This document shows positions 798 through 1,442 of a DNA stretch of 30,558 nucleotides, one piece after another. This stretch comes from a bacterium (GTDB lineage Bacteria; Bacillota; Clostridia; Oscillospirales; Acutalibacteraceae): NCBI GenBank assembly GCA_020626545.1, contig JAHKZS010000055.1, positions 1 to 30,558 on the forward strand, given 5' to 3'. The notes beneath the pieces were generated by a model. It saw only the letters and a list, made by a program, of their open reading frames with translations, did not search any database and was not told the origin of the DNA. The translations under genes and the position numbers were made by a program. Each line of letters starts with the position of its first letter. Positions within the stretch are counted from its first letter, which is position 1.

Positions 798-838
798 TTC
801 GGTCGGATAGATTTTCTATCCGACCGAATTATTTTTCA
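798..838. terminator. Rho-independent terminator after purL, probably bidirectional
   Basis: Arms 798-810 and 816-828 form a perfect 13-bp stem around a 5-nt loop. The stem is followed by a T-rich run (to 836) on the plus strand and preceded by an A-rich run, so it could stop transcription from both sides. The stop codon of the minus-strand XRE remnant lies directly against the stem. Confidence 0.9.
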
Positions 839-1095
839 AGCCCAAGAATAATACCGAGAGCTATATTTTGTTGTTTTTGAGGCAATAATCTATACTTGTT
901 TAATAATTCACACTCGTTTTCACTTAACTTGCTTTGAGCAATTTTGTCTATGGGTTCACGTATATCCGTATATCCTATTACATAATCTACAGAAGTACAG
1001 AATATATTAGCAATTTTCTTTAAAATAGCAATGCTTGGTTCGCTTTTACCGTTCTCATATGCGCTAATCATTTTTTGAGAAACATTTAATTTCAT
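829..1095 (-). pseudogene. XRE-family HTH regulator, 5'-truncated remnant
   Basis: The 88 readable residues match the helix-turn-helix of XRE/Cro-CI regulators from the middle of helix 2 onward (KLNVSQKMISAYENGKSEPS, then a typical VDYVIGYTD end) plus a short C-terminal tail. Helix 1 is missing from the open frame. Reading upstream in the same frame gives residues that fit the missing part (RNIEKVNS, stop, SLS, then M). The in-frame TAA (1105-1107) falls where the family usually has Gln, so a CAA-to-TAA change is plausible. There is no upstream ATG and no ribosome site before the ATG at 1095. I therefore read it as a decayed regulator and not a short functional one. The sequence is more AT-rich than purL beside it, which suggests accessory origin. 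The antisense-RNA promoter next to it lies over its lost 5' end. Alternatively, the 88-residue form could be a real small DNA-binding protein. Confidence 0.6.
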
Positions 1096-1111: not shown

Positions 1112-1139
1112 TTGACTTTTTCTATATTTCTGTTATAAT
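1112..1139 (+). promoter_or_regulatory. Promoter of the small RNA
   Basis: TTGACT (1112-1117) and TATAAT (1134-1139) are 16 bp apart, near consensus for sigma-A. Transcription would start near 1146 and meet a terminator about 90 nt later, with no open reading frame between. An 11-bp perfect inverted repeat (1119-1129 and 1140-1150) brackets the -10 box and could be an operator. Confidence 0.75.
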
Positions 1140-1145
1140 AAATAT

Positions 1146-1238
1146 AGAAACGGAGCTATCCGAGAAACGGCTAGCCCGATTTAGATGATCATATTGTAAC
1201 GACCGCTAAACTGGCTTTAGGCGGTCGTTACTCTTTTT
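1146..1238 (+). ncRNA. Candidate antisense RNA (type I antitoxin), about 93 nt
   Basis: A strong promoter and a strong terminator bracket about 93 nt with no coding potential. The 5' end can fold into a hairpin (1155-1162 with 1168-1175, one mismatch, loop AGAAA). The 3' end is the terminator stem at 1196-1231. The RNA points toward the minus-strand hydrophobic mini-gene, whose stop codon lies in this RNA's terminal T-run. If the toxin mRNA continues past its stop codon, all of this RNA would be complementary to the mRNA's 3' part, as in Firmicutes pairs such as txpA/RatA. The promoter and terminator are seen directly; the antitoxin role is inferred. Confidence 0.6.
1196..1238 (+). terminator. 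Terminator of the small RNA
   Basis: A perfect 11-bp stem (1196-1206 with 1221-1231) can be extended inside by a TAAA/TTTA pairing past one bulged base. It is followed by CTTTTTAT. The opposite strand has no T-run after the stem, so it mainly serves the plus strand. Confidence 0.85.
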
Positions 1239-1305
1239 ATTTATCATATTTAAATGATATAATTATCAAGAGTACAATTGTTAAGTACAGAATTATTTCG
1301 TACAT
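1237..1305 (-). CDS. 22-residue hydrophobic peptide, candidate type I toxin
   Basis: The peptide runs MYEIILYLTIVLLIIISF and ends KYDK: a short polar start, a single membrane span of about 15 Ile/Leu/Val-rich residues (4-18) and a charged tail. The MYE start and general plan recall the small holin-like toxins and TxpA/Fst-like peptides of Firmicutes, though it is shorter than most. Translation is well supported by GGGAGGGG about 6 nt before the ATG. Its own consensus promoter lies at 1414-1442, with a ~100-nt folded leader. The stop codon overlaps the terminal T-run of the convergent small RNA. A minus-strand hairpin (1175-1155) followed by a T-rich stretch could end the mRNA near 1140. Toxicity is inferred from size, hydrophobicity and layout; no sequence match was tested. 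Confidence 0.6.
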   Translation of the reverse strand: MYEIILYLTIVLLIIISFKYDK

Positions 1306-1406
1306 AGCAATCCCCTCCCAATACATATTCCCTTACGGGTTTCTATGTAAACAAGGTTCACAGTACCTTGAGGGAAGGCTAACCGCTTCCGTTTTAGGAT
1401 AGCTCA
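1306..1406 (-). promoter_or_regulatory. Structured 5' leader of the hydrophobic peptide mRNA
   Basis: About 100 nt of leader separates the promoter from the 22-residue frame. Three hairpins can form: GCUAUCC with GGUUAGC (1403-1397 with 1384-1378), CAAGGU with ACCUUG (1370-1365 with 1357-1352), and a GUAA-capped CCC/GGG stem inside an ACAUA/UAUGU stem. A UUCCCUC stretch (1376-1370) can also pair with GAGGGGA of the ribosome site, using one G-U pair. That would hide the site, as in known type I toxin mRNAs. The pairings are read by eye and no folding energy was computed. Confidence 0.55.
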
Positions 1407-1413
1407 CGCGTAT

Positions 1414-1442
1414 ATTCTAACACATATGTTCTCCTAAGTCAA
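1414..1442 (-). promoter_or_regulatory. Promoter of the hydrophobic peptide mRNA
   Basis: On the minus strand TTGACT (1442-1437) and TAGAAT (1419-1414) are 17 bp apart. Start of transcription is expected near 1406. It faces the small-RNA promoter at 1112-1139, so the two units converge. Confidence 0.75.

Follow-up and report, generated by a model that had tools for sequence, protein, structure and literature searches.

In the txpA/RatA and bsrG/SR4 systems of Bacillus subtilis, the antisense RNA overlaps the 3' end of the toxin mRNA. The CD-RCd pairs of Clostridioides difficile are likewise type I systems; in the part of their description available here, the two RNAs share a long complementary region. 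For par of pAD1 (RNA I/RNA II, with the Fst peptide), the source describes convergent promoters, a shared terminator that serves as a contact site, another related stretch close to the 5' end of each RNA, a leader hairpin that hides the ribosome site, and a single-span peptide; a figure legend there gives the peptide motif as PXXXG(C) (PMC7472228).

The locus considered here occupies positions 1105-1445 of the window, the whole stretch of 30,558 nucleotides that was analysed. It has in common with par/Fst convergent promoters, a hairpin shared by the two RNAs at the terminator, a second related stretch at the RNA starts, a ribosome site predicted to be hidden and a single-span peptide (PMC7472228), and its leader stem-loop is predicted to sequester the ribosome site in the same manner. 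It differs in its repeats and in its peptide: par/Fst carries direct repeats, DRa and DRb, whereas the second stretch of the cassette is an inverted repeat, present in the same sense in both RNAs; no family of par-type direct repeats was found in 1100-1450, nor over 60 units; and the window peptide has no proline, hence no PXXXG motif of the Fst kind. Because the direct-repeat and peptide-motif tests failed, the cassette is not classed as par, but by analogy it would work like par. From the CD-RCd pairs it is set apart, on the available part of their description, by its overlap, which consists of the terminator plus a shared 5' element. The preliminary description had invoked txpA/RatA, bsrG/SR4 and Fst together. 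They stand as analogues in layout, the two Bacillus systems by comparison of descriptions, rather than as demonstrated members of the same family; no Rfam family reaches its gathering score here. At that score Rfam 15 gave no match in the window, and a single tRNA in nine related loci. A permissive Rfam search returned four weak matches, led by rli60 at 24 bits against a cut-off of 60 and Ref1C at 20 bits against 90; these were rejected.

When the first 4300 bases of the window were compared with 11 related locus records, representing eight distinct contig places, homology to the other copies ended at 1105-1445, and the flanks of the compared copies were unrelated. Because homology stops there, these ~340 bp are a discrete cassette, within which two converging transcription units are predicted. 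The preliminary description had proposed that near-consensus promoters face each other here and had looked to their conservation in relatives. The first proposal is borne out: the putative antisense RNA promoter (1112-1139, plus strand) reads TTGACT-16-TATAAT with an extended -10 and 11 of 12 consensus matches, and the candidate toxin mRNA promoter (1442-1414, minus strand) reads TTGACT-17-TAGAAT with 10 of 12, judged from the window copy alone; TG precedes the -10 box in both. Promoter-like sequences as a class were not above chance in a 4-kb scan (8 versus 6.8 +/- 2.5 in shuffles). For the plus promoter, conservation across the family provides support: the -35 box is TTGACA, six matches of six, in 83 of 95 distinct antisense elements, chosen for their -10 box and related to one another so that they are not 95 independent cases, where about one would be expected with a shuffled upstream part. 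The window copy itself matches TTGACA at five of six positions.

The minus unit contains, as had been described, a frame for a toxin-like peptide of 22 residues, MYEIILYLTIVLLIIISFKYDK (1237-1305, minus strand, stop codon included). From its sequence, the product would be small and hydrophobic, with one membrane span and a charged C-terminus; it has no match in the Pfam, NCBIfam or PHROGs models. Frames of this kind are conserved in relatives as protein-coding sequence: purifying selection is evident in seven groups of related frames (pN/pS 0.00 to 0.28), with a value of 0.24 over nine distinct frames in the window peptide's own group. A hydrophobic frame of 17-40 residues, preceded by a ribosome site and ending at most 40 nt from the start of the terminator, was found in 76 of the 96 units with a readable terminator, a count made by a script that picked an upstream start in a few units. 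Across 77 units, in a script-made listing that took the wrong frame in several, the C-termini are mostly lysines or other charged residues, and the sequences differ greatly between groups. Some copies are irregular. In L194 (G023:C3) the peptide frame is shifted, with leader, terminator and antisense element retained; in L261 and L265 (G885:C6) a hairpin-rich insert of ~120 bases lies inside the frame, and a sister copy, L281, is free of it. L261 with the insert in its frame retains its antisense element.

Selection on the frame bears on one way of accounting for the whole arrangement, namely that it is a small mobile element of the MITE kind, with two inward promoters by chance and an incidental peptide. 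The discrete 340-bp unit with unrelated flanks and the inverted 5' elements fit such an element, as does its location at a broken gene. A repressor-like HTH gene lies alongside (829-1095, minus strand), matching HTH_3 from position 18 of 55 and short of some 18-20 N-terminal codons present in relatives L250 and L251; the cassette therefore sits at a break in this gene. A clean empty site was not found among the relatives listed, in which the end of purL and the acetyltransferase gene match separately and never side by side. An incidental peptide would not be expected to show purifying selection in seven groups, however, and a search of 1100-1450 for inverted repeats, with a minimum arm length of 10, found none at the ends of the cassette; a mobile element of this sort is very improbable. 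Elsewhere in the window, between two genes, a palindromic stretch (2024-2154, TGTCATCTTGAGCG ... CGCTCAGAATGACA) resembles a dispersed repeat.

The folded leader and ribosome site attributed to the minus unit are both present. The minus RNA (1200-1408) folds at -62.7 kcal/mol, with a z-score of -5.1 against shuffles, and the ribosome-binding site GGGAGGGG lies at 1312-1319 (minus strand). The predicted structure of the leader (1309-1383, minus strand) comprises an anti-SD/SD helix, a hairpin H1 with loop ACUGNGA, and a hairpin H2 (ACAUAGAAACCC..GGGAAUAUGU). The ribosome site has a mean predicted pairing probability of 0.96, versus 0.75 in shuffled leaders, and in 57 of 60 units it is more strongly paired than in shuffles of the same leader; these are the units with a recognised 5' element among 70 prefiltered for hydrophobicity, 10 being set aside. 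The leader of the mRNA is thus predicted to lock its ribosome site. In an alignment of 13 sequences of the window's leader type, five of the six pairs of H1 show compensatory changes; one false leader, L062, was dropped from the leaders collected.

A further possibility raised by the leader is that its domain, with the ACUGNGA loop and the ACAUAGAAACCC stem, is a sensor: it would bind a ligand or protein and open the ribosome site, leaving the antisense RNA as a second control. The loop is kept in most of the 13 sequences while the stem covaries, and the same domain recurs in L261, whose genome belongs to a different family within the class, both of which a sensor would explain; many cassettes, however, carry another leader type without the ACUGNGA domain, and the Rfam search of the window and nine related loci found nothing apart from the tRNA. 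A sensor-controlled variant is accordingly rated improbable. In a sister leader subtype (11 sequences), covariation was not above shuffles. The sister type (L100, L056, L137 and relatives) has four alternating segments, CCCTCT, AGAGGG, CCCTCT and AGAGGG, for which two alternative pairings are predicted, each precluding the other, as in a switch that controls the ribosome site.

The putative antitoxin RNA (1146-1240, plus strand), its two ends taken from the promoter and the terminator, would be ~95 nt long, close to the ~93 nt first proposed; the segment 1145-1241 folds at -33.2 kcal/mol (z -4.6 versus shuffles). Its terminator hairpin (1196-1231), where both RNAs overlap, has a perfect stem (1196-1206/1221-1231) with 14 nt between the arms, and the T-run that follows in the plus direction (1234-1238) runs into the peptide's stop codon (1237-1239), as the preliminary description stated. 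This hairpin is absent from a first scan, probably because only loops of 3-8 were considered there. On the minus strand the stem of the window copy lacks a T-run behind it, so that the 3' end of the mRNA is uncertain; in many relatives A/T tails flank the terminator on both sides, whereas the window copy has its T-run on the plus side only.

At the other end of each RNA, family comparison reveals a shared 5' element laid out as an inverted repeat: an antisense version, the hairpin GGAGCTATCCGAGAAACGGCTAGCCC (1152-1177, plus strand), and an mRNA version, GAGCTATCCTAAAACGGAAGCGGTTAGCC (1377-1405, minus strand). The RNA starts (1153-1166 and 1392-1405) are an inverted repeat of 86% identity, a feature absent from the preliminary description; the two RNAs would therefore resemble each other, in the same sense, at their 5' ends. 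CGGUUAGCC is often present in both (among 15 loci read of 25 treated). Over 60 units, the elements score a mean of 15.0 in the same sense, against 7.1 in the opposite sense and 6.0 when shuffled; the same-sense score is above every shuffle in 38 of the 60, and the window copy ties with its highest shuffle. The hairpin is more stable in the antisense RNA in 53 of the 60 (mean -11.1 versus -7.7 kcal/mol). A duplex between the elements of the two RNAs is predicted at -19.6 kcal/mol for cognate partners and -15.5 for shuffled ones, and beats 99% of its own shuffles in only eight of 60 units. Specific cognate pairing is not supported over these units, as non-cognate partners pair equally well (-19.3 kcal/mol); because of this the element would do no more than add a general contact, or else shield the 5' end of each RNA. 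The terminator overlap, by construction, gives perfect complementarity between the two RNAs and would be their specific contact.

Further copies lie on contigs C78 and C231 of the window's own genome, whose C34 carries a copy consisting of the antisense alone. A plain DNA search matched 20 of 148 genomes, the window's own included; at least three of these, in G059, G101 and G117, proved on inspection to be a promoter-like stretch only, with no unit. A pattern built on the antisense 5' end matched at least 117 stretches in named genomes. Many GC-rich stretches among the matches listed have no TATAAT box and were put down to chance; loci collected at that stage yielded 85 distinct antisense elements with a -10 box. 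Records with such elements (among the matches listed, compared by eye) bear the names Ruminococcus, Eubacterium, Ruminococcaceae, Oscillospiraceae, Clostridia or plain bacterium, and many of them derive from goat, deer or sheep samples. Three models were then used: R1 for the antisense 5' end, R2 for the mRNA 5' element, and R3, broader than R1. R1 matched 47 of 161 genomes of the genus, 18 of 394 of the order (in 11 of 168 genera), and two of 391 of the class, the window's own being one; R3 matched 16 of the same number of class genomes, again with the window's own, in 11 of 223 genera. Most of 15 loci read, from 25 treated, have leader, frame, terminator and a facing antisense element. The frame is broken or missing in L265, L276, L282 and L292, and tandem copies of the unit occur. 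By these sequence matches, the window locus belongs to a large family that extends across genus, order and class.

Phage and plasmid collections contained no match to the window cassette, nor to one peptide of the Hol_Tox type (see below). The antisense pattern matched seven viral contigs, of which five were read: L154, L155, L156 and L159 have no -10 box and look like chance matches, and L160 has an antisense element with a truncated frame and no leader. Two more viral contigs found with a second pattern, L262 and L263, have leader, frame and facing antisense element. A publication describing the family was not found among the open-access matches listed.

The distribution of the two halves of the cassette is informative as to their relation. 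Run over the 161 genus genomes, R2 produced 59 rows from 35 of them; removal of cross-hits between the models (four of 88 R1 rows and two of the R2 rows) left 84 antisense and 57 mRNA elements, with up to four paired units per genome. A convergent antisense element lies 149-234 nt from the mRNA element in 56 of the 57, and the remaining one, on reading, faces a diverged antisense element. Of the antisense rows, 56 are paired and 28 are not. Fifteen of the unpaired score below 45 bits, and the three of these that were read (L207, L209 and L219) have a frame and a diverged leader. Among the 13 at or above 45 bits, a contig end truncates one, a second combines a frame with a diverged leader, and in a third the leader is disrupted; the other 10 have no leader, and their frame is lost or cut short. 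Grouped by eye from flanking sequence, these ten correspond to about seven independent events. The reverse, a toxin-leader element without an antisense partner, does not occur among the 57 found by R2. Antisense without toxin but never toxin without antisense is the asymmetry that a toxin-antitoxin pair predicts, here for elements that R2 can find, as both models were trained on units found via the antisense, the R2 training elements adjoined antisense elements, and R2 misses diverged leaders (L204, L207 and L209). In L199 (G198:C24) unrelated sequence disrupts the leader of the unit, and the antisense element is retained.

The peptides themselves vary on what looks like a constant RNA chassis. 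Units L056 (MEYATIITLVVILCIIISVKK) and L130 (MQYVTYSELISFAMLIVGIITLIFTVLMFTHKK) are 97% identical over the 34 terminator letters compared; the L130 peptide, outside the scanned set, resembles by sequence those that score as Hol_Tox. In other pairs of units the terminators are 88-97% identical and the peptides 26-52%; the table holds all pairs at or above 88% and has no shuffle control, and only the closest pairs are informative because conserved stem arms inflate every score. A solitary antisense RNA, L170, has a 97% terminator match to the full units L039 and L136. A Pfam scan of 24 distinct peptides put three above the Hol_Tox (PF16935) cut-off of 23.3, at 25.3, 24.7 and 23.9 bits, and four more below it (22.7, 19.4, 16.7 and 12.3). 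Some cassettes, then, encode Hol_Tox peptides, whereas the window peptide and most of the short ones scanned do not match. One of the three above the cut-off reaches 30 bits with NCBIfam ComI as well, short of the 55 which that model requires; PepG1 scores are weak (17.4 and 13.3 versus 70), and PHROGs gave, for some family peptides, weak matches to holins and unknowns only.

Such variability must be weighed against a more domestic role for the peptide. It might be a harmless small membrane protein that assists, for example, a transporter or membrane enzyme, with its level held down by the cis-antisense RNA; selection on the peptide is as expected for a useful host gene, and so is the lack of matches to the window cassette in phage and plasmid collections. 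A helper would not readily account for peptides that vary widely between cassettes on one chassis, for as many as four paired units in one genome with unrelated flanks among the copies compared, for antisense-only remnants that have no counterpart in the reverse, or for family members that are Hol_Tox peptides; taken with these, a non-toxic role is unlikely.

A type I toxin-antitoxin cassette is the preferred reading of the locus, with a probability of roughly 0.8, and a new, modular type I family is the best explanation of the relatives. The suggestion made at the outset gains from the selected hydrophobic frame, the conserved antisense promoter and the predicted locked ribosome site, and further from antisense-only loci without toxin-only elements and from the related cassettes with Hol_Tox peptides. 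The anatomy, the selection on the frame, the predicted locking, the promoter conservation and the pairing asymmetry can be read from the DNA; transcription, silencing and toxicity, as we infer them, would run as follows. The minus promoter would produce an mRNA for the 22-residue membrane peptide, with the ribosome site locked by its own leader; the plus promoter would produce a short antisense RNA, perfectly complementary to the 3' end and terminator of that mRNA; binding would begin at the terminator overlap, and the duplex would block or destroy the mRNA; the same-sense 5' element might add a further contact without specificity, or shield the two RNAs. Loss of the antisense RNA would allow the peptide to be made and to damage the cell membrane.

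A wider perspective, tentative and on balance doubtful, supposes that the RNA chassis is an interchangeable frame dispersed through the Clostridia, with toxins swapped under one barcode and solitary antisense loci acting as immunity. If so, the chassis would consist of a strong antitoxin promoter, a same-sense 5' element, a locking leader and an identity barcode in the terminator loop; toxins of different families would be exchanged under the same barcode, and solitary antisense loci would keep matching barcodes as a defence against toxins that arrive or are already resident.

Type I pairs are hard to detect, as their peptides are too short for gene callers and their RNAs are rarely annotated. 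Here the searchable signature is the RNA chassis, not the peptide: a search with the chassis picks out candidate pairs in Clostridia of the rumen and gut, and most of their peptides have no match in the libraries searched. Antisense-only copies, together with the apparent exchange of toxins, may amount to a natural test of RNA-given immunity to related toxins.
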